Positions 24,821 through 49,652 of a stretch of 53,983 nucleotides of DNA are shown here, piece after piece; the first letter of the stretch is position 1, and every line of letters starts with the position of its first letter. The stretch spans positions 1 to 53,983 of the IMG/VR virus record IMGVR_UViG_3300032313_001579; one strand, 5' to 3'. The stretch comes from a virus. A program made the translations under genes and the position numbers. Under the pieces are notes generated by a model, which was not told where the DNA came from, did no database searches, and saw only the letters and a program-made list of their open reading frames with translations.

Positions 24821-25705
24821 ATGCATCGAATTCCTAACAAAGTAGACTTCTATATAACCAATGTTTGCAATTTAACCTGTCAACGCTGTAACAGATTTAA
24901 CAACTTTGATTTTAAAGGTTGGCAGGATTGGAAAGACTACCGGGAAACTTACGAGCAGTGGAGTAAACTTGTTAGTCTACGTGCCATAACAATCATGGGC
25001 GGCGAACCCTTCTTGAACCCTACGCTCAAAGATTGGGTGGCAGGTCTTAATGATCTTTTCAGTATTGAAGTTCAAGTGCTGACCAACGGCACCCGCTTCC
25101 TACAAGCAAAAGGAGTATATGAAACCATGTTTTATAGATCTCCTGTTAGTAATGAGCAAAATCATATCGGAGTTAGTTTACACACCCCAGAAGATTTTGA
25201 ACAAATTCGTGCTGATATCTACGAATTCCTTAAAGGTGATGTAACCGAGTTCGCTAAAGATCAAAATCTCTGGGGTGCAGACTGGCAATTTAAGGATAGT
25301 AATGGCGTAATGATCAATGTTTATACCGTGGATAAATTTGCCGGAGCTGCGATTATTCCTAAATTTGAAGGCGGATATACATTACATGACAGCGACCCAG
25401 AACAAGCACACTCGACCTGTGCTTTTGCTAATTGGAAATCCTATCATTTTGTTCGTGGTAAATTTTACAAGTGTGGTCCATCTGCTCTATTGCCTGAATT
25501 TGATGATCAACACCACCTGGGCATCAGCGACAACGATCGCACCTTGCTACACGCTTACAAACCGCTTACCGTGGATAATTTTGCCGAATACCACGAAGAA
25601 TTTTTTGCCAACCTAGACAACCCGATTGCACAGTGTAAATTTTGCCCAGCTAGCCACCAGATGGAAAAAATCTATCCTGTACGCAAAGGTTCTAAATCTA
25701 GCTAA
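24821..25705 (+). CDS. Radical SAM enzyme
   Basis: 294 residues. The iron-sulfur motif CNLTCQRC (C16, C20, C23) opens the barrel and GGEP (60-63) binds S-adenosylmethionine. Four more Cys (CAFANW, YKCGPS and CKFCPAS in the C-terminal third) suggest an auxiliary cluster of SPASM or twitch type, the kind used by peptide-modifying enzymes. The substrate is unknown. Placed between an unknown early gene and the neck gene gp13, with a late-promoter octamer 5 bases from ATG. Two further radical SAM genes occur in the window (40003, 48486), but this one lacks their N-terminal Cys region. Confidence 0.85.
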   Translation: MHRIPNKVDFYITNVCNLTCQRCNRFNNFDFKGWQDWKDYRETYEQWSKLVSLRAITIMGGEPFLNPTLKDWVAGLNDLFSIEVQVLTNGTRFLQAKGVYETMFYRSPVSNEQNHIGVSLHTPEDFEQIRADIYEFLKGDVTEFAKDQNLWGADWQFKDSNGVMINVYTVDKFAGAAIIPKFEGGYTLHDSDPEQAHSTCAFANWKSYHFVRGKFYKCGPSALLPEFDDQHHLGISDNDRTLLHAYKPLTVDNFAEYHEEFFANLDNPIAQCKFCPASHQMEKIYPVRKGSKSS

Positions 25706-25708
25706 ATA
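25701..25708 (+). promoter_or_regulatory. Late promoter GCTAAATA before gp13
   Basis: GCTAAATA overlapping the stop of the radical SAM gene, 21 bases before ATG 25730. In the leader, GGAAC (25711-25715) pairs with GTTCC (25721-25725) around the CGGAG ribosome binding site. Confidence 0.6.
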
Positions 25709-25729
25709 CAGGAACACGGAGTTCCCTAC

Positions 25730-26500
25730 ATGGCCTTAGAAAATCAATCCAGCACAGAAACCCTTAAACAACAATTATTTGATTATGTGAGCCTGCAACT
25801 GGGCAATCAAATCGTTGATCTTGAGCTGGATGCCGAACACTATGAGGCCGCTTATCAGCGTACCATTGGAGTTTATCGGCAACGGGCACAAAACGCCTAT
25901 GAAGAAAGCTACAGCTTTTTGGAGTTGGTTGCTGATGTGAACATTTATGATCTTCCGCAGGAAGTGATCACAGTGCGACAGATATTCCGTAGAACCTTTG
26001 GTGACAGCACCGGTCCGTTTGCGTCAAACTTTGATCCATTTAGCCAGGCCAGTTTAAACGTGTATCTCATGAACTTCAATGTGGCCGGCGGCCTTGCTAC
26101 CTATGACTTCTACAGTCAATATGTGGAACAGGCCGGCAAAATGTTTGGTGCTTACATGAACTACACCTGGAATCCTGTGACCAAAAAACTGCAATTGATA
26201 CGTGATCCCAAGGGCACCGGCGAAAATGTATTGTTATGGACCTACAATCTCAAACCCGAATTCAACCTGCTGAGAGATTATCAAATCCAACAATGGATAC
26301 GTGACTACATGGTTGCGGCCTGCAAGATGATCATTGGTGAAGCCCGAGAAAAATTTGGACAGTATGCGGGTCCACAAGGTGGTAGCCAACTCAACGGAAC
26401 TGCCATGAAGGGTGAAGCACAGGTTCAAATGGATGCTCAAATTGAAGCACTCAAAAACTACGTAGACGGCAGTCAACCCATAACCTGGGTCATAGGCTAA
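25730..26500 (+). CDS. 13: Neck protein gp13
   Basis: 256 residues. Family blocks: QQLFDYVSLQLGNQIVDLELDAEHYEAAYQRTI, FLELVADVNIYDLPQEVITVRQIFRR, and the C-terminal IQQWIRDYMVAACKMIIGEAREKFGQYAGPQGGSQLNG. gp13 completes the head neck and with gp14 makes the connector to the tail. T4 gp13 has about 309 residues, so this one is slightly short. Late-type promoter and CGGAG ribosome binding site. Here gp13 and gp14 are separated and on opposite strands, unlike the T4 order 13-14-15. Confidence 0.88.
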   Translation: MALENQSSTETLKQQLFDYVSLQLGNQIVDLELDAEHYEAAYQRTIGVYRQRAQNAYEESYSFLELVADVNIYDLPQEVITVRQIFRRTFGDSTGPFASNFDPFSQASLNVYLMNFNVAGGLATYDFYSQYVEQAGKMFGAYMNYTWNPVTKKLQLIRDPKGTGENVLLWTYNLKPEFNLLRDYQIQQWIRDYMVAACKMIIGEAREKFGQYAGPQGGSQLNGTAMKGEAQVQMDAQIEALKNYVDGSQPITWVIG

Positions 26501-26506
26501 ACTTCA

Positions 26507-26535
26507 TAGACAGATACCAAAATACATGCTATAAT
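26507..26535 (+). promoter_or_regulatory. Sigma-70 promoter TAGACA-17-TATAAT, extended -10, 5 bases from ATG
   Basis: TAGACA (26507-26512), 17-base spacer ending TGC, TATAAT (26530-26535), then CTAGC and ATG 26541. The expected start site is at the A of the ATG, so a leaderless early mRNA is predicted. Confidence 0.75.
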
Positions 26536-26540
26536 CTAGC

Positions 26541-27065
26541 ATGAGCACCAGTTTGATGATCGACATAGAAGGCCTGGCCACTGGACCAGATGCCACCATC
26601 TTGACCATAGCAGCACAGAGTTTTAATCCATTTGGAACAGGCTACTATGACCGTTGCTACTATGCCAGGATCACTTTAGAAAGCCAGGAAAATCGCGCCA
26701 TAGAACAAGGCACGCTGGATTGGTGGTCGACTCAGAAAGAAGCACAGACCGAAGCCTTCATGGAAGAAGGGCGTGTGGATCTAGACCAAGCACTTGATAG
26801 CCTGTATAAAATAGCCTGGCAACACAAATTTATATTTGCAAACGGTCCCACCTATGACATGAACATTCTGGAACATGCCTACAAGAGTTACAACAAGGCT
26901 CTGCCTTGGCAGTTCTACAATGTGCGTGATGCCAGAACCATCTACAGCCTATGGCCTGGGCTACCTCGCCCTGCTACCAGCCATCATGCTCTTGAAGACT
27001 GCCGTAGACAGATTGACATGTTGCAGGCCACACTTAGACATTTGAACGTAAAGGAACTTAGATGA
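26541..27065 (+). CDS. DEDDh 3'-5' exonuclease (Rv2179c/RNase T-like)
   Basis: 174 residues with the full DEDDh set: D8 and E10 in MIDIEG, D106 in TYDMNIL, H149 and D153 in HHALEDC. The pattern, with SQENRAIEQGTLDWWSTQ in between, matches the short exonucleases related to Rv2179c and phage DexA-like enzymes that degrade RNA or single-stranded DNA from the 3' end. Likely used for turnover of host nucleic acid or for processing. ATGA overlap with the dNMP kinase gene suggests coupled translation. The promoter is host-type, consistent with early nucleotide salvage. Confidence 0.82.
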   Translation: MSTSLMIDIEGLATGPDATILTIAAQSFNPFGTGYYDRCYYARITLESQENRAIEQGTLDWWSTQKEAQTEAFMEEGRVDLDQALDSLYKIAWQHKFIFANGPTYDMNILEHAYKSYNKALPWQFYNVRDARTIYSLWPGLPRPATSHHALEDCRRQIDMLQATLRHLNVKELR

Positions 27066-27724
27066 TTATTGGAGTATGCGGACTTATAGGTGCCGGCAAA
27101 GACACCATTGCAGACTATCTTGTAAACATACATCAGTTCAGACGTGAAAGTTTTGCCAACACCTTGAAAGATGCTGTGGCCAGTGTATTTGGCTGGGACC
27201 GCGAACTGCTGGAAGGACGCACACGGCACAGCCGAGAATGGCGCGAGCAAGTGGACGCCTGGTGGGCTAATCGCTTGGGCATGCCCGATCTAACACCAAG
27301 ATGGGTGCTACAATATTGGGGTACCGAAGTGGTGCGTAGAGGATTTCACGACGATACCTGGATAGCCAGCCTGGAAAATCGCCTGCGAAAAACCACAGAT
27401 GATGTGGTCATCAGTGATTGCAGATTCCCCAACGAAATTGATGCTATTAAAAGAACCGGGGGATTGGTTATTAGAGTAGTTAGAGGCCCAGAGCCCGAAT
27501 GGTATCCACTGGCTGAATCTGTCAACGCAGGACCCACAAACATCACCTGGTCATTGAGCAAAGATCAATTGGCCAAATACAAAGTTCATGCCAGTGAAAC
27601 TGCTTGGATTGGTACTGAGTTTGATGCGGTTATAGACAACAACAGCACCATGGATCACTTGTATGCACAGATTACAAGTCTGGTTCAAGATCTCCAACCG
27701 CCCAGGTCAAATCCAGGCGGTTGA
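27062..27724 (+). CDS. 1: Deoxynucleoside monophosphate kinase (T4 gp1-like)
   Basis: 220 residues. P-loop GLIGAGKDT at residues 7-15, then YLVNIHQFRRESFANTLKDAVASVFGWDRELLEG, typical of T4 gp1 family kinases that phosphorylate dNMPs for phage DNA synthesis. VVISDCRFPNEIDAIK provides the second nucleotide-binding strand. ATGA overlap with the exonuclease. Its 3' end overlaps by 53 bases the end of the minus-strand HNH-like gene. The exonuclease and kinase together look like a salvage pair: degrade nucleic acid, then rephosphorylate the monophosphates (inference). Confidence 0.88.
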   Translation: MIIGVCGLIGAGKDTIADYLVNIHQFRRESFANTLKDAVASVFGWDRELLEGRTRHSREWREQVDAWWANRLGMPDLTPRWVLQYWGTEVVRRGFHDDTWIASLENRLRKTTDDVVISDCRFPNEIDAIKRTGGLVIRVVRGPEPEWYPLAESVNAGPTNITWSLSKDQLAKYKVHASETAWIGTEFDAVIDNNSTMDHLYAQITSLVQDLQPPRSNPGG

Positions 27725-28016
27725 CCTCCACACAGCAGTTTTGACATATGGTCTTGAGGTTGCGCATGGTGTTGTTGTTGAGATTGCCGTCTACATGATA
27801 TACCATGAGTTGTGCGGCATACTTGGAACGAAATCCACAGCGATCACAGATAGTTTTTTTCTTGTAGCCTGCTGACCGCCAACGCGGTGCAGGCTGAGGC
27901 ACGCGACGTGCTTTTTTGATGCACCAGTCACATCTAGTGCGGTAGTGGGTAACTCCTGCACGCCGATAGTTTACAGCACATAGTCGTTGATTACAGGCCG
28001 GACATTTGGGTCTCAT
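27672..28016 (-). CDS. HNH-like zinc-finger protein (possible homing or DNA nuclease)
   Basis: 114 residues, strongly basic. Four Cys pairs: C5-C8, C29-C32, C57-C60, C91-C94. Between the last two comes VYHVDGNLNNNTMRNLKTICQNC, which fits the HNH core (H74, D76, Asn residues, C-x2-C). Free-standing HNH genes are common in T4-like phages as homing endonucleases or DNA nicking enzymes. Orientation opposite to its neighbours and tail overlap with the kinase gene suit a mobile gene. A TAAATA motif lies 4 bases before its ATG. Confidence 0.65.
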   Translation of the reverse strand: MRPKCPACNQRLCAVNYRRAGVTHYRTRCDWCIKKARRVPQPAPRWRSAGYKKKTICDRCGFRSKYAAQLMVYHVDGNLNNNTMRNLKTICQNCCVEVNRLDLTWAVGDLEPDL

Positions 28017-28020
28017 GCTG

Positions 28021-28028
28021 TATTTACT
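28021..28028 (-). promoter_or_regulatory. Late-promoter-like AGTAAATA, 4 bases from ATG
   Basis: Minus-strand AGTAAATA, then CAGC and the ATG of the HNH-like gene. Confidence 0.4.
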
Positions 28029-28078
28029 ATCAAAAACCTTTGCAAAGGGATATTGCCGTCGCTTTTTTTTGCCAAGAC

Positions 28079-28086
28079 CATAAATA
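28079..28086 (+). promoter_or_regulatory. Late promoter CATAAATA before tail sheath
   Basis: CATAAATA, 25 bases before ATG 28112, with AAGGA (28100-28104) correctly placed between. Confidence 0.65.
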
Positions 28087-28111
28087 TCTTATATTAAAAA
28101 AGGAATTGGTT

Positions 28112-31100
28112 ATGGCCTTATTATCCCCAGGTGTACAAGTTAGTGTTATTGATCAAAGCAACTACACTCCCGCTGCTGCAGGCTCTACGCCTTATCTGTT
28201 GATCGTCACTGCAGAAAACAAGATTTCTGGTGCTGGTACTGGAATAGCTCCAGGTACCTTGGCTGCCAATGCCAATAAAGTGTACCTGATGACCAGTCAG
28301 CGCGATATTTTGAGCACGTTTGGCGTGCCCTTTTTCTACAACACTACTTCGGGCACACCCATCAATGGCTACGAACTTAATGAATACGGTTTATTAGCTG
28401 GCTACAGTGCGCTGGGTGTAACAAACTTGGCCTATGTACAACGTGCTGATATAGATCTGGCAGCACTCACAGCCACGCTGAATCGTCCAGTGGGAGCACC
28501 GGCCGCCAACAGTTACTGGTTTGATACTACCAACAGCACCTTTGGTATCAAGGAGTGGAATCAGACCACTTCAGCATTTACCAACAAAACTCCTAGTGTG
28601 ATCACTGACACAGTGTTCCTGGAGACCAGTAGCACAGTACCTTTGGCCAGTTATGGCAGCATTGGTGACTACGCAGTCACTGCCACCAGTGTTTACAATC
28701 CTATCTACTACAAGCGCGGCGGCCCTACCACAGCGCAAGCACCTGGATGGATTCAAGACGGTGCCAGCGCCGGTGACTTATACAACACCTGGGTGCTTGT
28801 AGGCAGCGACGAATGGAAAACAGCCTGGGCCACTATAGCTGGTACTCTAGCTCCCTCCAGTCTGACTGTCGGCAACAGTTTCAGCATCAATGACATTGTA
28901 ATCACAGTGGCTGCCAGTCCCAACAACACAGTCACACAGCTGGTGACCAGCATCAATGCTGCTCTCAATGCCAGTGGTGTGTATGCTGCCAACATTGGCG
29001 GTAAACTCACACTGTATGCAGACAGCTCTGCCACCAATGACGGATCCACAGAAGGCACTGGGGTTATAGCCATCAACAACATTTCTGGCACACCTTTGGC
29101 CACCTTGGGTATCACCGGCGGTGAATATGCTGCTCCGGCTTATTTTCCAGGAGCCAACTATCAAGCACCAAGATGGCGTAGCACAGACACACAACCAGAA
29201 CCCACTGGCAGTGTGTTCCAACAAACCAATGCTACCAATCAAGGCATGTTGGTGCAGATCAAACGCTATGATGCCACTCTGGGCACGTTTGTGTTGCAGA
29301 GTTGCACAGTATATGCCGATGACGCCGCAGCCCTGTATGCCTTGGATCCAATCAACGGCGGACAAAGTATTCCGGTAGGAACAACTTATGCACAGATTGA
29401 TCCCTACAACAACAACACAGGTGCCATACTGATCCTGGAACGTGTGGCCACTGGTGCCACGGTGATTACAGGCACAGATTCAACTCCAGTGTTTGTGACC
29501 AACTCCACATTTACTCTGGCTGCCACACAGCCAGAAACAGCCACAGTGGCAGCCGCCGTCACGGTGACCATACTGGGCACAACTGCCGCAGATTTTGAGG
29601 CCGCTGTGAGTGCTGCCAATGTGCCCAATGTCAGTGCTACTGTTGATAGTAATGGAGCAATAGTGTTTACACATGCCACCGGAGGAGACATTTTCTTGGT
29701 AGAAGGTGCCAACACACCTCTGGCTGATGCAGGATTTACTACAGCAACCACAGGCATACGTCAAACAGATGTAACTGGTTCAGGACTCACACTCAGCAAC
29801 TGGGTAGGAACTCCAACATTTACCTACACAGCCAGTGCCAACGCACCCAATGTGGATCCCGCAAATGGCACCTACTGGTACTACAGCGATGCCACCACAG
29901 TGGACATCATGATTCAAAACAACGGCACATGGCAGGGTTATCAGAATGTGACCAACGACGTGCGTGGATTTGATCTCAGCGACACCAATGCCGCCGGTCC
30001 CATATTCAGCACCACAGCACCAACCACACAGACCGATGAAGCAGAAAGCCCCTTGGCTTTGGGTGACCTTTGGATTGACACCAGTGATCTAGAAAATTAT
30101 CCCTTGATCAATCGTTGGGAAAATGTGGATGGCGAAAATCAGTGGGTACGTATTGACAACACTGATCAGACTACCATCAATGGTGTGTTGTTTGCTGATG
30201 CACGTTGGGCACCCAATGGCACTACCAATCCTATCACAGATCCTATTCCACCCATAGCCACTGGTAGCACTCCATTGATTACCAGCAACTATTTGGATCT
30301 TGACGCACCTGATCCTGAGCTATATCCTGAAGGCATCCTGCTGTTCAATACACGCAGAAGTGGCTTCAACGTGAAATCGTTCCAGGTCAACTACTTTAAT
30401 TCGCAGGATTATCCATCACCATTGGTACTGCCTAGCCAGACCGATGCTTGGGTCACAGCTTCAGCCAATCGCAACGATGGTAGCCCCAACATGGGTCGCC
30501 ATGCACAACGCTATCTCATTGTGCAGGCACTGAGAGTGGCTATCGATACCAGCACACAACTGCGTGAAAATCAAGCACAGTTCAACCTGATCACCTGCGT
30601 CAGCTATCCAGAACTGGCACCCAACATGGAAGTGCTCAACAACGATCGTGGCAACACCGGCTTCAGTTTGGTAGACACACCACTGCGCTTGACGCCTGAT
30701 GAAATTGTTACCTGGGCCACCAACAACAACGGTCTGGGACTCAGCACCGGAGATGGAGCTTTGACCGCCGGCGATCCTTATGGCGCTGCATTCTACCCCA
30801 GCTGTACCACAACCGATCTCACAGGAAACGTGGTGGTAACTGCACCAAGTCACATGATGTTGCGCACTATCATACGCAGCGATGCTGTGGCATTCCCTTG
30901 GTTTGCACCAGCTGGCTTGCGTCGCGGAGTGGTAGACAATGCTCTACAGATTGGTTACCTACAAGCTCAAACTGGTGAATTCCAGCCGTTGGGCGTAAAT
31001 CAAGGTCTGCGTGATGTGTTGTACTCGAACAATGTTAACCCAATCACGTTCATACCTGGCACAGGCATAACCAATTTTGGTAATCACACCTTGCAAGGCA

Positions 31101-31441
31101 CGGCCACTGCACTGGATCGTATCAACGTGGCACGCTTGGTAGCATTCATACGTGGACGCCTGGAGATCATTGGAGATCAGTACTTGTTTGAACCCAACGA
31201 TACTATAACTCGTAGCTCTATCACTAACCAGATCACAGCACTCATGGTGGATCTGGTCAACAAGCGCGGTCTCTATGACTTCTTGGTAGTGTGTGATTTG
31301 ACCAACAATACACCAGCTACCATAGATGCCAATGAACTGTATGTGGACATAGCCATTGAACCGGTTAAGGCAGTAGAGTTTATCTACATACCAATGCGCA
31401 TACAGAACACAGGAACCATAGCGGCACAAGCCTCGGCCTAA
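28112..31441 (+). CDS. 18: Tail sheath protein gp18
   Basis: 1109 residues. N-terminus MALLSPGVQVSVIDQSNYTPAAAGSTPYL and C-terminus VDLVNKRGLYDFLVVCDLTNNTPATIDANELYVDIAIEPVKAVEFIYIPMRI are diagnostic of the contractile sheath. ATG 28112 is preferred over 28040 because promoter and ribosome binding site lie between. T4 gp18 has 659 residues; the extra mass sits at about residues 130-690. One inserted segment (about 245-335, SLTVGNSFSINDIVITV ... VTQLVTSINAAL ... GGKLTLYA) resembles the insert repeat of flagellar hook-cap proteins. Inserted domains would face outward on the sheath. Confidence 0.95.
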   Translation: MALLSPGVQVSVIDQSNYTPAAAGSTPYLLIVTAENKISGAGTGIAPGTLAANANKVYLMTSQRDILSTFGVPFFYNTTSGTPINGYELNEYGLLAGYSALGVTNLAYVQRADIDLAALTATLNRPVGAPAANSYWFDTTNSTFGIKEWNQTTSAFTNKTPSVITDTVFLETSSTVPLASYGSIGDYAVTATSVYNPIYYKRGGPTTAQAPGWIQDGASAGDLYNTWVLVGSDEWKTAWATIAGTLAPSSLTVGNSFSINDIVITVAASPNNTVTQLVTSINAALNASGVYAANIGGKLTLYADSSATNDGSTEGTGVIAINNISGTPLATLGITGGEYAAPAYFPGANYQAPRWRSTDTQPEPTGSVFQQTNATNQGMLVQIKRYDATLGTFVLQSCTVYADDAAALYALDPINGGQSIPVGTTYAQIDPYNNNTGAILILERVATGATVITGTDSTPVFVTNSTFTLAATQPETATVAAAVTVTILGTTAADFEAAVSAANVPNVSATVDSNGAIVFTHATGGDIFLVEGANTPLADAGFTTATTGIRQTDVTGSGLTLSNWVGTPTFTYTASANAPNVDPANGTYWYYSDATTVDIMIQNNGTWQGYQNVTNDVRGFDLSDTNAAGPIFSTTAPTTQTDEAESPLALGDLWIDTSDLENYPLINRWENVDGENQWVRIDNTDQTTINGVLFADARWAPNGTTNPITDPIPPIATGSTPLITSNYLDLDAPDPELYPEGILLFNTRRSGFNVKSFQVNYFNSQDYPSPLVLPSQTDAWVTASANRNDGSPNMGRHAQRYLIVQALRVAIDTSTQLRENQAQFNLITCVSYPELAPNMEVLNNDRGNTGFSLVDTPLRLTPDEIVTWATNNNGLGLSTGDGALTAGDPYGAAFYPSCTTTDLTGNVVVTAPSHMMLRTIIRSDAVAFPWFAPAGLRRGVVDNALQIGYLQAQTGEFQPLGVNQGLRDVLYSNNVNPITFIPGTGITNFGNHTLQGTATALDRINVARLVAFIRGRLEIIGDQYLFEPNDTITRSSITNQITALMVDLVNKRGLYDFLVVCDLTNNTPATIDANELYVDIAIEPVKAVEFIYIPMRIQNTGTIAAQASA

Positions 31442-31447
31442 CATGAC

Positions 31448-31455
31448 CATAAATA
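31448..31455 (+). promoter_or_regulatory. Late promoter CATAAATA before tail tube
   Basis: CATAAATA, 23 bases before ATG 31479, with AGGAG (31466-31470) between. Confidence 0.65.
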
Positions 31456-31478
31456 ACTGCATATCAGGAGAACACTAA

Positions 31479-39530: not shown

Positions 39531-39968
39531 ATGAAAAAACTACTACTCACTCTTTTACTCATTCCATGTTTGGCCATGGCACAAAAAATGCCCAAGAATT
39601 CTGCCACCTATGACGCACAGATCATCAGAGTGAGTGACGGTGATACCATTGTAATTAGTGCACCATTCCTGCCTGCTCCACTCAAACCTGAACTGGCTTT
39701 GCGTGTGTTTGGTGTAGACACTCCAGAAAAAGGACATCGTGCCCAGTGCCCTAGCGAAGATGCTCGCGGTCAAGCCGCCAGTGAATTTACCAAAAATGCT
39801 GTAAAGAGCACCAAGAAGCATCAGGTCGTATTGTATTCTTGGGACAAGTTCGGCGGCCGTGTGCTGGGCGACATGATCCTGGACGGTGTCAGTCTACGTA
39901 GTGAACTGATCCGCAACGGCTTTGCACGTGAATACTACGGCGATGCCAAGCAGAGCTGGTGTCAATAA
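39531..39968 (+). CDS. Secreted thermonuclease (staphylococcal nuclease family)
   Basis: 145 residues with a signal peptide MKKLLLTLLLIPCLAMA, likely cleaved before Q18. The mature part has the SNase motifs: VSDGDTIVI (metal site), LRVFGVDTPEKG with R58 and E66, and DKFGGRVLG with R110, the three catalytic residues. Family enzymes cut DNA and RNA with calcium. A phage-encoded, exported nuclease could degrade periplasmic or extracellular DNA, remove competing phage DNA or act at lysis. It stands at the end of a virion-protein block, before a radical SAM gene. Confidence 0.85.
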   Translation: MKKLLLTLLLIPCLAMAQKMPKNSATYDAQIIRVSDGDTIVISAPFLPAPLKPELALRVFGVDTPEKGHRAQCPSEDARGQAASEFTKNAVKSTKKHQVVLYSWDKFGGRVLGDMILDGVSLRSELIRNGFAREYYGDAKQSWCQ

Positions 39969-40002: not shown

Positions 40003-41133
40003 ATGAGCAATTTCTATTGTGCCGCCCCTTGGCGAGGCCTACACATCAATCCGCGTGGTGATGTCAAAACCTGTTGTGCAGGCGATCCCAACATGCTGGG
40101 CAATCTCAATACTCAAAGCATAGAAAGTATTCTGCATGGTCCTGTCATGCAAGAAATACGTCAAACTATTCGGCAAGGCCGTCCACATGAGCAATATTGC
40201 CACAATTGCATCCAAGCTGAACGCTATGGTCGCAGTGAACGCGATTGGCACAACACGGTCAGTCCAGAATTTGACCCAACAACAGCACCAGACGACGAAC
40301 ACCGTCCTGCCCTGATTGATGTGCGTTGGAATATTACCTGCAATCTGAGCTGTAATTATTGTGGCGACAAATGTTCGAGCAAATGGGCCGCATTGCAACA
40401 GGTGCCATTCAAGTCAGGTGCAAGACCATATTATCAGCAGGTTTGTGATTATCTCGAACACCATCGGTCGGCCATACGTGAAGTGGCCTTGGTCGGCGGT
40501 GAACCATTGTTGTTGCCAGAAAACGAACGACTGTTAGATGTCATACCAGATGATTGCATAGTGACATTGATAACCAATGTGTCGGTTGATTTGGCCTCAA
40601 ACAAAATTTTTAACAAATTAAAAACACGCAGTCAAGTGGGATGGAGTCTGAGTTTTGACAACATTGAATCACGTTTTGAATATGTAAGATACGGTTCCAG
40701 TTGGAACCTGTTGTTAAAAAATTTAAAGGTTATCAACAACCTGTTTGATCAACAAGGTCATTGGGGCGGAATACATGCTGTCTACAACATATACAATGCC
40801 ACACGATTGGTTGAATTTACCCAGTTTGCAAGAAGTCAAGGATTTACTATTCATTGGCAAAGTTTATATCAGCCAGACTGTTTAGATCCACAAAAATTAG
40901 GTTCTGCAACCATGTCATTGGCTCAAAAAGAAATTGAGCACTTGTTGACATTGGATATCTGTCTAGATTCAGAACGCGATTTTTTCCAACAAGTTCAACA
41001 AAATTTTAATTCCGTGCAGGATTTGAAAAATCAGTTTGCCGAACATACAAACAAGATTGAAACAATTTATCACACAGATCAACAAGGACAGTTTGAGATG
41101 TTATGGCCAGAACTGGAGTTCCTATGCAAATAA
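40003..41133 (+). CDS. Radical SAM enzyme with N-terminal Cys cluster
   Basis: 376 residues. Core motif CNLSCNYC (C113, C117, C120) and GGEP (165-168). Ahead of the core is a Cys-rich domain: C6 in YCAAPWRGLHINPRGDVKTCCAG, C24-C25, and C66-x2-C69 (YCHNC), a SPASM-like auxiliary cluster module placed at the N-terminus. The third radical SAM gene (48486) shares this plan. SPASM-type enzymes modify ribosomal peptides or proteins. It overlaps the start of the 2OG-Fe(II) oxygenase by 10 bases, so the two are probably translated together and may act on the same substrate. Confidence 0.87.
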   Translation: MSNFYCAAPWRGLHINPRGDVKTCCAGDPNMLGNLNTQSIESILHGPVMQEIRQTIRQGRPHEQYCHNCIQAERYGRSERDWHNTVSPEFDPTTAPDDEHRPALIDVRWNITCNLSCNYCGDKCSSKWAALQQVPFKSGARPYYQQVCDYLEHHRSAIREVALVGGEPLLLPENERLLDVIPDDCIVTLITNVSVDLASNKIFNKLKTRSQVGWSLSFDNIESRFEYVRYGSSWNLLLKNLKVINNLFDQQGHWGGIHAVYNIYNATRLVEFTQFARSQGFTIHWQSLYQPDCLDPQKLGSATMSLAQKEIEHLLTLDICLDSERDFFQQVQQNFNSVQDLKNQFAEHTNKIETIYHTDQQGQFEMLWPELEFLCK

Positions 41134-41681
41134 CCCCAGTAGACGAATATGCAGATCTTTACATGGTCAGCAACATAGTGTCCTCTGAACTGGAGCAAAA
41201 GGTTCTTTCTACTCCCTGGATGGATCTAGAATTTGTCAAACAACCTGGACAAGAAAATTGGCCTCGTAGGCTTGTTGTAGACAAATATCTGCCGTGGTTG
41301 GATCAGTGGCAACACGAAATTTTACAAAGTTGGCCAGTTTTAGAACAGAGTTTGGGTGTAAAATTACAATCTTATTCAGGCACAGCATTTTGGTTAGACG
41401 AGCCTGGATTTACATGTGCCATACACACTGATGGTGAAATGCCAGGCAGTTTACACATCAGCTGGATTGGAGACAGTGGGCTAGGCACCACATTTTATCA
41501 TAGCAAAAATCGTAACAATGTGAGATTCCGCCACAAGTTTACAAGCAATTCGGGCTATGCCATGATCAACATGCCAGATCAGTCTGGTTATCGCCATCTG
41601 CAATGGCATGGCATGTTGGAACCAGTGCCCAAAAATTCATATAGACTTACTAGTTACACCTGGTTAGTACCTATTAAATAG
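41124..41681 (+). CDS. 2OG-Fe(II) oxygenase-like protein
   Basis: 185 residues. ATG 41124, with TGGAG 5 bases before it, is preferred over ATG 41103 inside the radical SAM gene. Iron ligands: H101-x-D103 (AIHTDGE) and H162 (LQWHGML), with R174 (NSYRLTSY) as the 2-oxoglutarate anchor, the classic facial triad on a jelly roll. Family enzymes hydroxylate proteins, nucleic acids or small molecules. Pairing with a SPASM-type radical SAM enzyme suggests a two-step modification of one target. Confidence 0.75.
   Translation: MQITPVDEYADLYMVSNIVSSELEQKVLSTPWMDLEFVKQPGQENWPRRLVVDKYLPWLDQWQHEILQSWPVLEQSLGVKLQSYSGTAFWLDEPGFTCAIHTDGEMPGSLHISWIGDSGLGTTFYHSKNRNNVRFRHKFTSNSGYAMINMPDQSGYRHLQWHGMLEPVPKNSYRLTSYTWLVPIK
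41673..41680 (+). promoter_or_regulatory. Late-promoter-like ATTAAATA at the oxygenase stop, 4 bases from ATG
   Basis: Octamer within the last codons (ATT AAA TAG), then GTCC and ATG 41685 of the 29-residue ORF. It would also serve the large terminase. Confidence 0.4.
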
Positions 41682-41684: not shown

Positions 41685-41774
41685 ATGTTCAATAAAATAA
41701 AAAAACCTCGGCATGTTGGAGTATTTTATGCTCAACCAATGCCAGCAGAAAACATGCTCAAGGAGTTGGTATGA
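41685..41774 (+). CDS. 29-residue small ORF coupled to large terminase
   Basis: ATG 41685 to TGA 41774: begins MFNKIKKPRHVGVFYAQ, ends NMLKELV. It fills the gap between the oxygenase and gp17, has a late-promoter-like octamer 4 bases upstream, and its stop overlaps the terminase ATG as ATGA. Its last bases AAGGAG form the ribosome binding site of gp17. It may be a leader peptide coupling translation or a small basic protein. Conservation cannot be judged here. Confidence 0.45.
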   Translation: MFNKIKKPRHVGVFYAQPMPAENMLKELV

Positions 41775-43333
41775 CTGCAGAGAGCGCACTGGTCAAGGCT
41801 CCATACAAACGCACTACGTTTACTGACCAACAACTTGATGAATTTTTAAAATGTGCTGATCCAGTTACCGGTCCAGAATATTTCATGGACAACTTTTTTT
41901 ACATACAGCATCCCACACGTGGCAAGATGCTGTACCACCCGTTCGAATATCAATCACGCCTGATTCATACCTATCACAATTATAGATTTAGCATCAGCAT
42001 GATGCCCAGGCAAACCGGTAAGTCGACTTCGGCAGCAGGTTACCTGTTGTGGTATGCCATGTTCGTACCAGACTCAACCATCCTAATTGCCGCACACAAA
42101 TACACAGGCTCACAGGAAATCATGCAACGTATCCGATACGCTTATGAACTATGTCCAGATCACATACGTGCAGGTTGCACCAGTTACAACAAAGGTAACT
42201 TGGATTTTGAAAACGGATCAAGAATAGTTTCAACAACCACAACAGAAAACACCGGTCGTGGTATGAGTATATCCTTGTTATACGCAGACGAGTTTGCATT
42301 TGTTCGTCCCGGTATTGCCAAAGAATTCTGGACCTCTATCAGTCCGACCTTGGCCACTGGTGGTAAAGCAATTATTACTAGCACACCAAATTCAGACGAA
42401 GATCAGTTTGCTCTGCTATGGAAAGGCGCCAACCGTTGCGAAGATGAGTTTGGCAATCCCACGGATCTGGGCATTAATGGATTCCGTGCCTATCGCAGTT
42501 ACTGGAACGAACATCCAGACCGTGATGAACGTTGGGCCACCGAACAACGAGCACAGCTAGGCGAAGATCGTTTCAGGCGAGAGATGGGATGCGAATTTAT
42601 CATCAACGATGAAACGCTTATAGCTCCAGCCAAGCTGATAGATCTACAAGGACACGAGCCCTTGTATAAAACCGGACAGGTGCGCTGGTATCAACGACCC
42701 AGGAAAGATCGTACCTATGTGATAGCTCTAGATCCCAGCCTGGGTACCGGTGGCGATCCTGCGGCCATACAGGTGTTTGAAGCCGAAACCACTGAACAGG
42801 TGGCCGAATGGCGCCACAACAGAACCACCATACCTGAACAGGTACGTATTTTGACCAGTATCTGTGCCCATATCAATGAAACTGTGCAGAATCCGCAAAA
42901 AGTCTACTTCAGCATAGAAAACAACACCATTGGCGAAGCTGCCTTGATCAGCATAGCCGAATACGGAGAAGAAAATATCCAAGGCTATTTTCTCAGCGAA
43001 CCCAGTGGTGGCGGCAATCGCAGATATCGCAAAGGATTCAACACCACCAACAAGCCCAAACTGGCAGCCTGTAACAAGCTCAAATTGCTGGTAGAAACCG
43101 GTCGCATGAAAATACGTAGCTCGGGCCTGGTTTCAGAGCTCAAAACTTTTGTGGCTTCGGGCATGGGCTATGCAGCCAAACCCGGCGAAACTGACGATCT
43201 TGTTATGAGCACAGTACTGGCCATACGCATGTTACAGTTGCTCCAGACCTATGACAGTGACATCAATAATCAACTGCGTGATCACGGCGATGAGATTAGA
43301 CCACCCATGCCGTTCATAGCAGTATTGCGATAA
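41771..43333 (+). CDS. 17: Large terminase subunit gp17
   Basis: 520 residues (T4 610). ATPase: Walker A MPRQTGKST (78-86), Walker B LLYADE with D173-E174, coupling motif ITSTPN (202-207). Nuclease: D321 in IALDPSLGTGGD, E383 in YFSIENN, D475-D476 in GETDDLVMS. gp17 cuts the DNA concatemer and drives it into the head. AAGGAG precedes the ATG, which overlaps the 29-residue ORF. The stop codon TAA is part of the next late promoter. Confidence 0.96.
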   Translation: MTAESALVKAPYKRTTFTDQQLDEFLKCADPVTGPEYFMDNFFYIQHPTRGKMLYHPFEYQSRLIHTYHNYRFSISMMPRQTGKSTSAAGYLLWYAMFVPDSTILIAAHKYTGSQEIMQRIRYAYELCPDHIRAGCTSYNKGNLDFENGSRIVSTTTTENTGRGMSISLLYADEFAFVRPGIAKEFWTSISPTLATGGKAIITSTPNSDEDQFALLWKGANRCEDEFGNPTDLGINGFRAYRSYWNEHPDRDERWATEQRAQLGEDRFRREMGCEFIINDETLIAPAKLIDLQGHEPLYKTGQVRWYQRPRKDRTYVIALDPSLGTGGDPAAIQVFEAETTEQVAEWRHNRTTIPEQVRILTSICAHINETVQNPQKVYFSIENNTIGEAALISIAEYGEENIQGYFLSEPSGGGNRRYRKGFNTTNKPKLAACNKLKLLVETGRMKIRSSGLVSELKTFVASGMGYAAKPGETDDLVMSTVLAIRMLQLLQTYDSDINNQLRDHGDEIRPPMPFIAVLR

Positions 43334-43336
43334 ATA
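43329..43336 (+). promoter_or_regulatory. Late-promoter-like GATAAATA, 7 bases from ATG
   Basis: GATAAATA contains the gp17 stop codon; ACTTACT and ATG 43344 follow. No ribosome binding site is present. Confidence 0.55.
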
Positions 43337-43343
43337 ACTTACT

Positions 43344-45062: not shown

Positions 45063-45085
45063 ATTTGTAATTAGAACAACCGCGT

Positions 45086-45093
45086 CATAAATA
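45086..45093 (+). promoter_or_regulatory. Late-type octamer CATAAATA upstream of gp32
   Basis: Exact CATAAATA immediately upstream of a sigma-70 promoter, so gp32 could be transcribed both early and late, as ssDNA-binding protein is needed throughout. Confidence 0.5.
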
Positions 45094-45097
45094 TTCA

Positions 45098-45126
45098 TTG
45101 ACGCTACTCAAACCAGCGTGTATACT
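45098..45126 (+). promoter_or_regulatory. Sigma-70 promoter TTGACG-17-TATACT before gp32
   Basis: TTGACG (45098-45103), 17-base spacer, TATACT (45121-45126). It predicts a leader of about 95 bases before ATG 45227. Confidence 0.75.
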
Positions 45127-45160
45127 TGTAAAAGTGTATGCGCTTTTTTGTTAGCATCAC

Positions 45161-45220
45161 AGGCAACGTAACATCTAAACATTTAGATAGGCAACACATA
45201 GTAAACTTTAGAAAGGCAAC
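45161..45220 (+). repeat. gp32 leader: three AGGCAAC repeats and a palindrome
   Basis: AGGCAAC occurs at 45161-45167, 45189-45195 and 45214-45220; ATCTAAA (45173-45179) and TTTAGAT (45182-45188) form a 7-base inverted repeat between the first two. In T4 the gp32 leader is the target of translational self-control, so an operator role is reasonable, though not shown. Confidence 0.5.
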
Positions 45221-45226
45221 TTAACT

Positions 45227-46207
45227 ATGGCATCATTAGCAGAAATTCGCGCAAGACTAGCCGCTAGCGAATCAAAACAAGGCGGAAACTCCACAGGCGG
45301 TGACAACTCGATTTACCCACATTGGAACATGGAAGAAGGCCAAAGTGCCACGCTCCGTTTCTTGCCTGATGGTAATTCAAAGAACACATTCTTTTGGCAA
45401 GAACGGGCTATGATCCGCTTGCCATTCAATGGCATCAAAGGCGAAGCAGATTCTAAACAAGTCTACGTCCAAGTGCCGTGCATGGAGATGTGGCAAGAGA
45501 CCTGCCCAGTGCTGACGGAAGTACGCACCTGGTTCAAGGACAAGGCTCTGGAAGATATGGGTCGCAAATATTGGAAAAAACGCAGTTATATTTTCCAGGG
45601 TTTTGTTCGCGAGAATCCACTTGCTGACGACAAGACTCCTGAAAACCCAATCCGCCGTTTCATCATTGGTCCTCAGATCTTTACACTTATCAAAGGTGCA
45701 TTGATGGATCCAGAACTGGAAGAATTGCCAACAGACTTGATGCGTGGTCTGGACTTCCGTATCAGCAAGACATCCAAAGGCGGCTTTGCTGACTACAACA
45801 GTTCAAAGTGGGCACGCAAAGAATCGGCCCTTGCAGAAGCTGAACAGGCCGCGGTTGAAAAACACGGTCTGTTTGATTTGAGTACATTCTTGCCCAAGAA
45901 ACCTTCAGAGGCAGAAGTCCGGGTCATCAAGGAAATGTTCGAAGCGTCAGTAGACGGACAGACCTATGATACCGAACGTTGGGGTCAGTATTTCCGCCCA
46001 GCAGGTGTCAATGCTCCAGCAGGTGTATCCAGTGCCACACATGCCGACGAAGATGCTCCAGCACCGGCGGCCAAACCGGCTCCGGTAGCGGCCAGCAGTT
46101 TTGACGACGAGGATGATGCTCCGGTGTCAGCACCGGTAGAAGCCAAACCGGCAACTCAGAAAGCCGAAGATATTTTGGCCATGATTCGTGCTAGACAAAA
46201 GCAGTAA
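45227..46207 (+). CDS. 32: Single-stranded DNA-binding protein gp32
   Basis: 326 residues (T4 301). The N-terminal basic region MASLAEIRARLAASESKQGG is followed by the OB-fold core with IYPHWNMEEGQSATLRFLPDGNSKNTFFWQERAMIRLPFNG, then RSYIFQGFVRENPLADDKTPENPIRRFIIGPQIFTLI. The acidic C-terminal tail ASSFDDEDDAPVSAP recruits replication partners in this family. Of the zinc-binding ligands of T4 gp32 I see only C-x6-C (PCMEMWQETC), so zinc binding may be altered. Ribosome site AAAGG at 45212 is 10 bases away. First gene of the recombination block with UvsX and UvsY. Confidence 0.93.
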   Translation: MASLAEIRARLAASESKQGGNSTGGDNSIYPHWNMEEGQSATLRFLPDGNSKNTFFWQERAMIRLPFNGIKGEADSKQVYVQVPCMEMWQETCPVLTEVRTWFKDKALEDMGRKYWKKRSYIFQGFVRENPLADDKTPENPIRRFIIGPQIFTLIKGALMDPELEELPTDLMRGLDFRISKTSKGGFADYNSSKWARKESALAEAEQAAVEKHGLFDLSTFLPKKPSEAEVRVIKEMFEASVDGQTYDTERWGQYFRPAGVNAPAGVSSATHADEDAPAPAAKPAPVAASSFDDEDDAPVSAPVEAKPATQKAEDILAMIRARQKQ

Positions 46208-46214
46208 TCAAAAA

Positions 46215-46239
46215 TAGTCCGGGTGTAACACCCGGACTA
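46215..46239 (+). terminator. Perfect 11-pair hairpin after gp32, without T-tract
   Basis: TAGTCCGGGTG (46215-46225), loop TAA, CACCCGGACTA (46229-46239). Very stable, but followed by AACTACTAC and not by T residues. It could protect the 3' end of the gp32 mRNA, be a processing site, or reduce readthrough into the next gene. Confidence 0.6.
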
Positions 46240-46252
46240 AACTACTACACAT

Positions 46253-47161
46253 ATGAAATTTTCCTTGGTATTTGACAAATCTGGCGATACTCTGCCTTTT
46301 GAGGTAAAGTACAATCACAAATTGTTTGAATTCTTTGTAGACTATTCTAATCAACAAACACAAAATTCTTTTTCGAATAGTCAAATGTTGTACAAGGATC
46401 TTGACAAAAAAATTACACATCTGCATTGGGCAATTTCAAAAACCAACGAAGTGTTGTATTCATTAACAGGACAAACATTTGATCAACATACAAATTTAGA
46501 AAACTATCTAGATCAGAATTTTCTAAATAAAACTCACTGTGATTGGGTGTTTTCACAAAAAAAATCAGTCAACATTGACCAATTGAGATTTAGTAATATT
46601 TCAGATTTGGCAAGGATTGGCAATCAGTTGCATGAGTTATATCCTGACCATATACGGACTATACCAATAGCACCAGTATTGGAAAAATTGGGGTACATTT
46701 ACCCTTATGAAGAAGTTAACATGGGAGTTCATCGTCTTGAAAGTTCGTTTAACAAACAAAATTTAGAATTTAGTGCAGACAACAAGTGGGAAGTTTTTTC
46801 AAACCCTTATATAGACACCATGGTTTCCAACAACGATGTTGTGAATTTTAGTTTTGGATATACCTATGTTGGCCGGCAGTATTACAATAAATTTGAGTAT
46901 TTTGACAGTGACTTATTGTACAAAGACCATTATAATTATGAAACATTGGAATTTTCATTTCAGTTAAATTTGCAAAAGCCACAGACTATTTTGTATAGCC
47001 CGGAGTTGATTGAATGGTCGAAGAAGCACGATGTTCCAATGATAACTACACAGTTACCTATTGCCAACATACTAGACATTGAAACAAAGTTGTTTGAATA
47101 TAGAAAAATTTTGTACAGAAATTCTCGAGATAACAATCGAGTAAAAATTGTTTTAAACTAA
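46253..47161 (+). CDS. AT-rich gene of unknown function (302 residues)
   Basis: 302 residues, starting MKFSLVFDKSGDTLPFEVKYNH, rich in Asn, Phe, Tyr and Lys. No domain recognised; helical-plus-strand pattern with HLHWAISKTNEVLYSL and IGNQLHELYPDH. Base composition is clearly more AT-rich than gp32 and uvsX on both sides, and it splits a pair expected to be cotranscribed. It follows a strong hairpin and has no clear ribosome binding site. This looks like an acquired accessory gene. Confidence 0.65.
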   Translation: MKFSLVFDKSGDTLPFEVKYNHKLFEFFVDYSNQQTQNSFSNSQMLYKDLDKKITHLHWAISKTNEVLYSLTGQTFDQHTNLENYLDQNFLNKTHCDWVFSQKKSVNIDQLRFSNISDLARIGNQLHELYPDHIRTIPIAPVLEKLGYIYPYEEVNMGVHRLESSFNKQNLEFSADNKWEVFSNPYIDTMVSNNDVVNFSFGYTYVGRQYYNKFEYFDSDLLYKDHYNYETLEFSFQLNLQKPQTILYSPELIEWSKKHDVPMITTQLPIANILDIETKLFEYRKILYRNSRDNNRVKIVLN

Positions 47162-47175
47162 GAAAAAGGAAAATC

Positions 47176-48234
47176 ATGGGCAAACCATTTGACATAAGCA
47201 AGTTCCGCAAGGACATCACAAAAAGTATCGAAGGTCTGAGCATTGGATTTAATGATCCAACTGACTGGATTTCAACAGGCAACTTTGCCTTGAATTATCT
47301 CATCTCAGGAGACTTTAACAAAGGTATTCCTCTGGGCAAGATCACAGTGTTTGCCGGCGAGTCCGGTGCAGGCAAAAGTTATATTTGTTCTGGCAACATT
47401 GTCAAGAACGCACAAGAGCAAGGCATCTTTGTTATCCTAGTTGATACAGAAAACGCACTTGATGAAACATGGCTACACGCACTTGGCGTAGACACAGGCC
47501 CAGACAAATTGCTTAAATTAAACATGAGTATGATTGATGACGTGGCCAAAGCTATTTCAACATTCATGATTGATTATAAGGCCTTGCCCGACGGCGAGCG
47601 CATGAAGGTGTTGTGGGTTATCGACTCGTTGGGCATGTTATTGACCCCAACTGATGTAAACCAATTTGAAGCCGGTGACATGAAAGGTGATATGGGTCGT
47701 AAACCCAAGGCACTTACAAGTCTTGTTCGCAACTCAGTCAATATGTTTGGTGGCTACAACGTTGGAATGGTCTGTACCAACCACACATACGCAAGTCAAG
47801 ACATGTTTGATCCTGATGATAAAATATCAGGCGGTCAGGGCTTTATCTATGCGTCAAGTATTGTTGTGGCCATGAAGAAGATGAAACTCAAAGAAGACGA
47901 GGATGGCAACAAGATCTCTGAAGTCATGGGCATCCGTGCCGGTTGTAAGGTAATGAAAACACGCTATGCCAAACCTTTTGAAGGTATGCAGGTCAAGATT
48001 CCGTACGAAACAGGTATGAATCCCTACAGCGGATTGACTGATCTGGCCGAAAAGAAAGGCCTGCTCAAGAAAGATGGTAATCGACTCATGTTTGTGACTT
48101 CAGATGGCGAGATCATCAAACAGTTCCGCAAGGCCTGGGAAAGCAATGAAGAAGGTTGCTTGGACAAGGTCATGGCCGATTTTGCAAATCAAAAAGAAAC
48201 GGTAAGTACTGAAGAAACAGCCTCGGAGGAATAA
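47176..48234 (+). CDS. uvsX: RecA-like recombinase UvsX
   Basis: 352 residues (T4 391). Walker A GESGAGKS (61-68), Walker B VLWVID (145-150), and the DNA-binding loop region MKGDMGRKPKALTSLVRNSVNMFGGYNVGMVCTNHTY. It forms filaments on single-stranded DNA for strand exchange and recombination-dependent replication with gp32 and UvsY. AAAGGA stands 7 bases before the ATG. The acidic end SEE is followed 3 bases later by the next gene. Confidence 0.95.
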   Translation: MGKPFDISKFRKDITKSIEGLSIGFNDPTDWISTGNFALNYLISGDFNKGIPLGKITVFAGESGAGKSYICSGNIVKNAQEQGIFVILVDTENALDETWLHALGVDTGPDKLLKLNMSMIDDVAKAISTFMIDYKALPDGERMKVLWVIDSLGMLLTPTDVNQFEAGDMKGDMGRKPKALTSLVRNSVNMFGGYNVGMVCTNHTYASQDMFDPDDKISGGQGFIYASSIVVAMKKMKLKEDEDGNKISEVMGIRAGCKVMKTRYAKPFEGMQVKIPYETGMNPYSGLTDLAEKKGLLKKDGNRLMFVTSDGEIIKQFRKAWESNEEGCLDKVMADFANQKETVSTEETASEE

Positions 48235-48237
48235 CGG

Positions 48238-48486
48238 ATGTCGGTAGAATTAAGCAAAGAAATTTGGGACGAACTCAAGCGTTATGTTAATCCACAAGAT
48301 CGTGGTGACGCCGCAGAAACATTGGTCAGTGTGTTGATTGACAACGATGCGTCAGCTGACGAAATTCGAAACACATTCAAGGGAGACACCGAAGTCAAGC
48401 ATGCTTTGGCCAGTTATCTTAAAGATCACGAAGAAGATGAAGAGATAGACGAGTACGATGAAGACGAAGAAGACGAAGACTACTAA
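48238..48486 (+). CDS. Small acidic protein next to UvsX
   Basis: 82 residues: a short helical domain (VELSKEIWDELKRYVNPQDRGDAAETLVSVLIDND) and a C-terminal run of almost only Asp and Glu. I recall close relatives beside uvsX or other replication genes in aquatic T4-like phages. The acidic tail resembles DNA-mimic or SSB-interaction tails, so it may be a partner of the recombination complex. TAATG overlap with the radical SAM gene. Confidence 0.65.
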   Translation: MSVELSKEIWDELKRYVNPQDRGDAAETLVSVLIDNDASADEIRNTFKGDTEVKHALASYLKDHEEDEEIDEYDEDEEDEDY

Positions 48487-49652
48487 TGCCTCAATCAACT
48501 TCGGGTGACTTCTATTGTAGTGAAAAATTTACTTGGCTTTCTGTTGATTTAGAAAAACGTCAAACTTTTTCGTGTTGTGCTGCCCGTCCTGCCCAGATAG
48601 ATATTACCTGGATCAAGCAACACCCTGGTCAGCTGTTTAATACTCCGGTACTACAGAAAGAACGAGAACAGATGTTGCTGAATCAGCCGGTTGTCAGTTG
48701 TGAGGAAGTTTGCTGGAAACCTGAGCAGGCAAATTTAATAAGTCGTCGTCAGATGTTGAAAAGTCAGTCTCGCACACACGTTAACATTGATGTGGTTACG
48801 CCAGAAAAACTCAATATAGTATTGGGGTCAACTTGTAATCTGACTTGTTCTTATTGTTGCAAAAATTACAGTTCAGCCTGGCTGAGAGATATTGCCAATC
48901 ATGGCGCATACTTGGATCAGGAAAGGTTCCAAATTAACAACAAAGACCGGTTAGTTATACAAATAAGCCAAAAAGAACATCAGGAATCTAATGGCTTCCA
49001 AATATTGTTGACCGAAATACAAAGCTTCTCGGATGTTAAAGAGATCTATATTTCTGGTGGCGAACCGTTTCTGTACAATAACTTGCCAGATTTATTAAAT
49101 CAATTGGGCAGTCGCTCTGCTAATATAACCTGTTATACTGGATTGGGTGTAGATCCTACACGTTTTTCTGCCCAGCTGAAAAAAATTAAAAATAAGGATA
49201 GATTAACCATTGCTGTTAGTGGAGAAACTTGCAACCAACTTTATGAATTCAATCGTTATGGCAATACCTGGGACAATTTTCTTGTCAATGTCAGAGAATT
49301 ACAAACACAAGGATTCAATTATCAATTTTCTTCGGTACTTAGCAATTTGACTATTTTTGGATTGCTTGATTTTGTTAAACTTTTTGCCGACAAAGAAATT
49401 AAACACCAGTTTTGCGCAGTACCAGATTTTCTCAATGTAAACGTGTTGGACGACGTCAGCAAGAGCAAGTTAAAAATTGCGTTGCAGGAAAGTAATTTAT
49501 CATTTAAACAAGAAGTGTACAATACCATATCCCAGCCCTGCACCGATCAACAAAGAAAAGAGCTGTCAATATATGTGAAAGAATTTGCCAGAAGAAGAGA
49601 TCTGAGTCTGAACATATATCCAGAACATTTTCTGTCCTGGATCGAATATTGA
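48486..49652 (+). CDS. Radical SAM enzyme with N-terminal Cys cluster
   Basis: 388 residues. Core CNLTCSYC (C117, C121, C124) and GGEP (191-194). N-terminal Cys residues C11, C30-C31, C72 and C76 mirror those of the protein at 40003 (C6, C24-C25, C66, C69), so the two are probable paralogues with an extra cluster ahead of the barrel. The substrate is unknown. It lies between the acidic protein and UvsY in a recombination operon, an unexpected place, and is more AT-rich than those neighbours. Confidence 0.83.
   Translation: MPQSTSGDFYCSEKFTWLSVDLEKRQTFSCCAARPAQIDITWIKQHPGQLFNTPVLQKEREQMLLNQPVVSCEEVCWKPEQANLISRRQMLKSQSRTHVNIDVVTPEKLNIVLGSTCNLTCSYCCKNYSSAWLRDIANHGAYLDQERFQINNKDRLVIQISQKEHQESNGFQILLTEIQSFSDVKEIYISGGEPFLYNNLPDLLNQLGSRSANITCYTGLGVDPTRFSAQLKKIKNKDRLTIAVSGETCNQLYEFNRYGNTWDNFLVNVRELQTQGFNYQFSSVLSNLTIFGLLDFVKLFADKEIKHQFCAVPDFLNVNVLDDVSKSKLKIALQESNLSFKQEVYNTISQPCTDQQRKELSIYVKEFARRRDLSLNIYPEHFLSWIEY

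Follow-up and report, generated by a model that had tools for sequence, protein, structure and literature searches.

Our analysis of a 53,983-base virus record from IMG/VR (the window, that is, the whole stretch of DNA analysed) revealed a gene for a radical S-adenosylmethionine (rSAM) enzyme, here termed rSAM-B, that overlaps a gene for a 2-oxoglutarate (2OG)-Fe(II) oxygenase upstream of the gene for the terminase large subunit (TerL). The pairing of the genes, their natural fusions and the constant gene order in related phages strongly support that the two are physically coupled, almost obligatory partners. We consider it reasonably probable that they form a two-enzyme tailoring unit of a phage-encoded glycan biosynthesis, whose likeliest recipient would be the virion. 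Since relatives of these rSAM genes are found among sugar-building genes, the most likely product of the set is an unusual sugar coat and not a modified peptide.

The window belongs to the genome of a T4-like myovirus. The capsid protein shares 60-65% identity with those of the jumbo phages Pseudomonas phage PA5oct, Vibrio phage 2.275.O and Sinorhizobium phage Phosso, the terminase shows up to 54% identity to PA5oct-type phages, and contigs related to it reach sizes up to 317-364 kb. The source virus is an uncultured jumbo-type phage. The rSAM-rich relatives of the window encode 2-14 rSAM proteins per contig. The window itself has three rSAM genes (A-C), all at the positions given in a preliminary description of this DNA. 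The genes of main concern are:

24821..25705, plus strand: rSAM-A, radical SAM protein with a C-terminal four-cysteine (twitch-like) set (PF04055, 3.6e-8)
39531..39968, plus strand: staphylococcal-nuclease-like protein, as a rule encoded next to rSAM-B on its upstream side (PF00565, 1.2e-10; synteny)
40003..41133, plus strand: rSAM-B, N-terminal twitch radical SAM protein with invariant cysteine sets (NF033640, 199.7 bits; PF04055, 1.5e-5)
41103..41681, plus strand: 2OG-Fe(II) oxygenase with invariant HxD/H/R residues, 31-base overlap with rSAM-B (structure model and Foldseek)
41771..43333, plus strand: TerL, fixed anchor downstream of the cassette (PF03237, 2e-17; synteny)
48486..49652, plus strand: rSAM-C, the second radical SAM protein with an N-terminal twitch; optional slot flanked by g48238 and UvsY (PF04055, 3.5e-9)

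Coupling of rSAM-B with the oxygenase

The overlap of the gene at 40003 with a 2OG-Fe(II) oxygenase gene, proposed in the preliminary description, was confirmed by the shared bases, the metal and co-substrate ligands and the predicted fold. Specifically, H108, D110, H169 and R181 are invariant among 27 homologues, and the predicted structure (pLDDT 91.5) matches P4H, PHD2, AlkB-type and PolD-type oxygenases in the PDB, with PolD, a nucleoside-antibiotic 2OG enzyme, as best fold match. No match for the protein was obtained in Pfam, PHROG or NCBIfam, and none of the 27 family members matches any Pfam 2OG family; such a match was counted as supporting, not as defining, superfamily membership. With its H-x-D...H...R set on a double-stranded beta helix in the model, the open reading frame (ORF) at 41103-41681 is, by residues and predicted fold, a genuine 2OG-Fe(II) oxygenase.

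In loci retrieved with rSAM-B, this gene precedes TerL. The order rSAM-B, oxygenase, second twitch rSAM, SGNH-type esterase/acyltransferase, TerL is constant, while the interval between rSAM-B and TerL holds none, one or several genes, now and then including extra ones (glycosyltransferase (GT)-like, epimerase; loci L016 and L069). Because these first loci had been chosen by rSAM-B, the oxygenase and TerL were used as further seeds. The oxygenase-seeded scan found rSAM-B directly upstream in 76 of 78 testable loci; one more locus has rSAM-B about 780 bases off and one is without it. Seeding with TerL recovered rSAM-B in 38 of 68 testable loci, which overturned the impression of a universal core gene gained from the rSAM-B-seeded loci, and the oxygenase in eight, all of them with rSAM-B. 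On the TerL tree, rSAM-B changes at least nine times (shuffled mean 22.7) and the oxygenase at least six times (shuffled mean 7.7). The TerL-seeded counts and the changes on the tree indicate that rSAM-B is optional and partly inherited and that the oxygenase is mobile and linked to rSAM-B as a partner; an independent-pairs test of the oxygenase against rSAM-B on this tree, with too few pairs, did not reach significance.

Two kinds of natural fusion were found, rSAM-B with the oxygenase (564 amino acids (aa); L065 and L068) and rSAM-B with SGNH (618 aa; L005 and L006). Since the two contigs of each fusion are identical in sequence, each fusion represents one lineage. Nearly half of the close TerL relatives (L262-L340) have no cassette directly upstream of TerL, which marks this site as a hot spot of gain and loss.

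The preliminary description had taken all three rSAM genes and the oxygenase together as one modification system. The coupled rSAM and 2OG oxygenase stand, but the three rSAM genes do not constitute a single operon, and only rSAM-B and the oxygenase form a unit. rSAM-A has a slot of its own, fixed between g23650 (present in 55 of 55 loci) and g25730 (53 of 54), and the slot between g48238 and UvsY carries an rSAM-C-like gene in 6 of 25 loci. Conserved co-occurrence in related phages, which had been proposed as a check, was seen for rSAM-B and the oxygenase and not for a short peptide gene, which has no counterpart there.

The separate slot of rSAM-A and the optional rSAM-C would also fit unlinked auxiliary metabolic genes, each rSAM serving a different host pathway and their co-occurrence reflecting general rSAM richness. 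A T4-like marine environmental genome of 183 kb with 12 rSAM genes, TARA_ERS488813_N000010, was reported in 2017, and the passages of that report on this genome place its rSAM genes among Fe-S auxiliary genes (PMC5332604). We regard this explanation as quite unlikely, since it does not account for the linkage of rSAM-B and oxygenase, their fusions or the constant cassette order. Furthermore, a twitch family is shared in sugar-type clusters (see below), and no close rSAM-B relative was found in 84,980 prokaryote (bacterial and archaeal) species genomes by a pattern-based scan, in which distant bacterial members could be missed.

Two of the three rSAM genes had been noted to have promoter-abutting ATGs, and indeed TAAATA ends 5 nucleotides (nt) before the start codons of rSAM-A and rSAM-B:

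24810..24815, plus strand: TAAATA box resembling a late promoter, 5 nt upstream of the rSAM-A start codon
39992..39997, plus strand: TAAATA box resembling a late promoter, 5 nt upstream of the rSAM-B start codon

Of the 19 TAAATA sites on the plus strand of the window, 13 have a gene start no more than 40 nt downstream; such positions make up about 3.7% of the sequence. Among relatives (L004-L083), TAAATA ends 4-7 nt ahead of the rSAM-B ATG in 64 of 79 loci. TAAATA is likely a late-promoter element, and its distance of 4-7 nt to the start codon suggests that the transcripts are late and may be leaderless. If the rSAM-B/oxygenase unit is transcribed late together with the structural genes, the virion would be its likeliest recipient. 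In many relatives the TAAATA upstream of rSAM-B is located inside an inverted repeat, e.g. CCTGTAAATACAGG; the window copy is without this repeat.

Twitch-type radical SAM proteins and their possible substrates

rSAM-B is a member of N_Twi_rSAM (NCBIfam NF033640, twitch domain-containing radical SAM protein), for which its full-length score lies above the curated cut-off of 170 bits. rSAM-C narrowly misses this cut-off with 158.5 bits and is formally just outside. Residues 6-69 of rSAM-B match PF13186 (1.8e-12). In 43 rSAM-B homologues C6, C24, C25, C66 and C69 as well as the rSAM cysteines C113, C117 and C120 are all invariant, so the N-terminal four-cysteine twitch and the C-x3-C-x2-C core of the family are both present throughout. 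The cysteine positions listed for rSAM-B and rSAM-C in the preliminary description were correct, and of the duplicated SPASM-like type suggested there the shared domain remains. Judged from its cysteines, this domain is a single invariant set of four or five, i.e. of the twitch type with one cluster and not a two-cluster SPASM domain. With 23% identity across 269 aa (2e-13), rSAM-B and rSAM-C are by sequence comparison distant paralogues and not the result of a recent duplication. The cysteine set of rSAM-A had been overlooked; C200, C218, C272 and C275, located C-terminally, are kept in at least 95% of 58 homologues. At the patterns used, 149 relatives of rSAM-B were found in IMG/VR, of which the best 80 are 60-76% identical. 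The pattern scan gave no close IMG/VR relatives of rSAM-C; synteny searches do give rSAM-C-like genes with 23-57% identity.

The main rival explanation, which we consider unlikely, is that a virion protein or a peptide is modified directly. rSAM-B would then be an epimerase or cross-linker, the oxygenase a prolyl/asparaginyl-type hydroxylase, and the target a late structural protein. The predicted oxygenase fold near P4H/PHD2-type protein hydroxylases (and also near PolD), the occurrence of SuiB and anSME among the weak fold matches of rSAM-B, and the location of rSAM-B beside TerL in the late structural region with a late-type promoter are all consistent with this. A peptide or protein target had been suggested before, together with a 29-residue ORF next to the terminase gene, which does exist in the window:

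41685..41774, plus strand: 29-aa ORF, probably not a conserved gene

This ORF was rejected as a precursor peptide, as it is without counterpart in relatives; where the oxygenase lies directly before TerL, the intergenic gap is only about 9-17 nt and leaves no room for it. In relatives, rSAM-B frequently lies directly between the nuclease gene and TerL, so that there is no space for a precursor gene, and no conserved precursor peptide gene adjoining rSAM-B was found among them. Maturases of ribosomally synthesized and post-translationally modified peptides (RiPPs) such as SuiB, AlbA and SkfB resemble the proteins described here in their rSAM core and auxiliary-cluster domain; their two-cluster SPASM domain, precursor gene and leader recognition were not found. 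Only C6, C24-25, C66 and C69 are invariant in the domain, compared to about seven cysteines for the two auxiliary clusters of a full SPASM domain, and before residue 6 there is no space for an N-terminal leader-binding domain. All RiPP/peptide-maturase equivalog models remained far from their cut-offs with the rSAM proteins, and related rSAM genes interleave with glycosyltransferase genes. The peptide reading is therefore not favoured on present evidence.

Modification of DNA or nucleotides, with the enzymes making a hypermodified base or a chain-terminating nucleotide as viperin does, appears very unlikely. It would agree with AbmM and viperin as the best among the weak and mixed Foldseek matches of rSAM-B, all of them with TM below about 0.5, and with PolD as best match of the oxygenase. 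Glycosyltransferases are furthermore able to decorate DNA (PMC12619734). This explanation is less likely because no thymidylate-synthase-family hydroxymethylase is encoded in contigs up to 364 kb: PF00303 (thymidylate-synthase/dCMP-hydroxymethylase) was found neither in 15 contigs nor in further ones of 177-364 kb. A search for Tet/JBP hydroxylases gave no match in the contigs, and none in the control genomes either. The viperin model NF038283 reached 34.5 bits (rSAM-A) and 32.1 bits (rSAM-B) against a cut-off of 180, and late-type promoters suit virion assembly better than replication. Clear homology to tRNA- or queuosine-type enzymes, which had been named as an observation that would speak against a modification system, was not detected; the QueE model TIGR03963 gave 34.8 bits (rSAM-A) and 33.7 bits (rSAM-B) against a cut-off of 260.1.

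Sugar and glycosyltransferase genes in the window and in related phages

Genes of the window with a possible role in glycan synthesis or attachment are:

3771..4919, minus strand: TPR and GT9-like protein, candidate virion glycosyltransferase, adjoining the major capsid gene (TPR, 1.3e-10; PF01075, 7e-6)
50131..50886, plus strand: SAM-dependent methyltransferase (PF08242, 6.5e-7; PF08241, 2.8e-6)
50890..51663, plus strand: GT8-like glycosyltransferase, weak (PF01501, 0.01)
51654..52232, plus strand: GT25 glycosyltransferase (PF01755, 4.2e-13)
52229..53029, plus strand: GT8-like glycosyltransferase, weak (PF01501, 0.013)
53058..53630, plus strand: TylF/macrocin-O-methyltransferase-type sugar methyltransferase (PF05711, 2.3e-14)

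The last five follow rSAM-C and UvsY in this order. The TPR-GT9 protein is convergent with the major capsid gene, which it adjoins in seven of seven relatives where it was found; its position is kept in L255-L261 with 60-66% identity. This OGT-like layout beside the capsid gene suggests capsid glycosylation.

In rSAM-rich relatives, extra twitch rSAM genes are found at constant positions around SSB, UvsX and UvsY, accompanied by genes for SDR/epimerase-type proteins; UvsY is followed by cytidylyltransferase-cupin and glycosyltransferase genes. Slots near rSAM-B contain SDR/epimerase, SGNH and GT-like genes. In the window, the SDR/twitch-rSAM slot between SSB and UvsX encodes a 302-aa protein of unknown family (46253-47161).

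A cluster of roughly 16 kb on contig G015, with counterparts on G002, G016 and G017 (not all pieces were seen on every contig), encodes a sugar 4,6-dehydratase-like (dTDP-glucose-dehydratase-like) epimerase, a PseC/DegT aminotransferase, a carbamoyltransferase, GT-like proteins, an amidinotransferase with PDB matches to glycine and inosamine-phosphate amidinotransferases, and four to six rSAM proteins, one of which scores 408 bits for N_Twi_rSAM. The arrays in which four to six genes for twitch rSAM proteins are accompanied by carbamoyltransferase, amidinotransferase and GT-like genes are located on G002 (L092), G015 (L245-L246), G016 (L249) and G017 (L253), and the aminotransferase and epimerase were seen on G002, G015 and G016. 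On G015, which is without rSAM-B, an oxygenase of the window type adjoins the carbamoyltransferase, and the G016 cluster includes a homologue of the second rSAM. The clusters also encode a conserved protein of about 800 aa and unknown family (L245:4088-6484, minus strand, and homologues) with no usable Pfam match.

Similar arrangements exist in named phages. In Vibrio phage K566 (L341, record of 160-171 kb) twitch rSAM genes alternate with GT8 and GT4-like genes. In cyanophage S-SCSM2R an rSAM-A relative is found between an aminotransferase and glycosyltransferases (GT, GT25), with genes for a 2OG oxygenase and an inosamine amidinotransferase nearby. These glycan clusters differ from the system described here, as searches of cultured and annotated phages with rSAM-B, the oxygenase and rSAM-C gave no match and revealed neither an rSAM-B orthologue nor a TerL cassette.

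For glycan tailoring, we propose that hydrogen abstraction from a sugar or glycan by the twitch rSAM would lead to epimerisation, dehydration or oxidation (cf. BtrN, HygY, NeoN), and that this scaffold would also be hydroxylated or oxidised by the 2OG enzyme. The optional partners, a second twitch rSAM and the SGNH-type protein, may alter the product. rSAM-A and rSAM-C might take part in the same chemistry, with the glycosyltransferases and the sugar methyltransferase downstream of rSAM-C, and the TPR-glycosyltransferase beside the capsid gene would be a candidate for the attaching enzyme.

Several observations weigh against glycan tailoring. In the window, rSAM-B is flanked by the nuclease gene and TerL with no sugar gene beside it, and in 22 of the 38 TerL-seeded loci with rSAM-B it stands alone before TerL. 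Foldseek of rSAM-B is not discriminating, with nucleotide enzymes (viperin, AbmM) about equal to a peptide enzyme (SuiB). In Pfam tallies near versus far from rSAM genes, sugar families are enriched only modestly, because sugar genes abound across the whole of these genomes. Recognition of the GT-like 'TEK' proteins and of the sulfotransferase-like c10 was by eye, not by a model, and the virion as target is something we infer.

Known systems and implications

Comparable enzymes are those acting on aminocyclitols and aminosugars, for which rSAM chemistry is established (BtrN, NeoN), with HygY as a twitch epimerase (PMC10991966 and references therein). The rSAM-B profile aligns with the BtrN twitch in the PDB with inverted domain order: the twitch is C-terminal in BtrN and N-terminal in rSAM-B and rSAM-C, and only rSAM-A has the BtrN order. 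An association with sugar or aminocyclitol biosynthesis genes, as for BtrN, is seen in relatives, where related genes neighbour amidino-, amino- and carbamoyltransferase genes, and in the window only at a distance.

Members of N_Twi_rSAM appear here in virus-specific slots with a 2OG oxygenase partner. We know of no reaction assigned to this family, and no functional study of N-terminal twitch enzymes in phages was found in the literature. The richness of T4-like uncultured phages in rSAM genes is already known, and TARA_ERS488813_N000010 resembles the window in this respect; the passages on this genome do not describe a TerL-linked cassette, a 2OG partner, fusions or a sugar-cluster context (PMC5332604). 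In the open-licence literature searched we found no earlier description of the TerL-linked rSAM-B/oxygenase cassette, of the fusions or of sugar clusters with twitch rSAM genes.

A wider and more tentative possibility, which we regard as somewhat doubtful, is that widespread uncultured jumbo-type phages own a multi-step radical pathway to aminosugar- or aminocyclitol-like glycans that coat their virions. Its pieces would be the dehydratase, the aminotransferase, up to six clustered twitch rSAM proteins, the amidino- and carbamoyltransferase and the 2OG oxygenase, and the TerL-linked rSAM-B/2OG cassette might be a late, exchangeable tailoring step.

If glycan tailoring is indeed the function, these phages would carry an elaborate radical chemistry for sugars, with a single contig encoding as many as 14 rSAM proteins, and the N_Twi_rSAM family would gain a testable job and a 2OG partner. 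The natural rSAM-oxygenase and rSAM-SGNH fusions provide material for enzymology, and Vibrio phage K566, as a named phage, is a possible laboratory-tractable relative. Chemically unusual glycans would then be predicted on phage particles, where they could affect adsorption, evasion of defence and particle stability.

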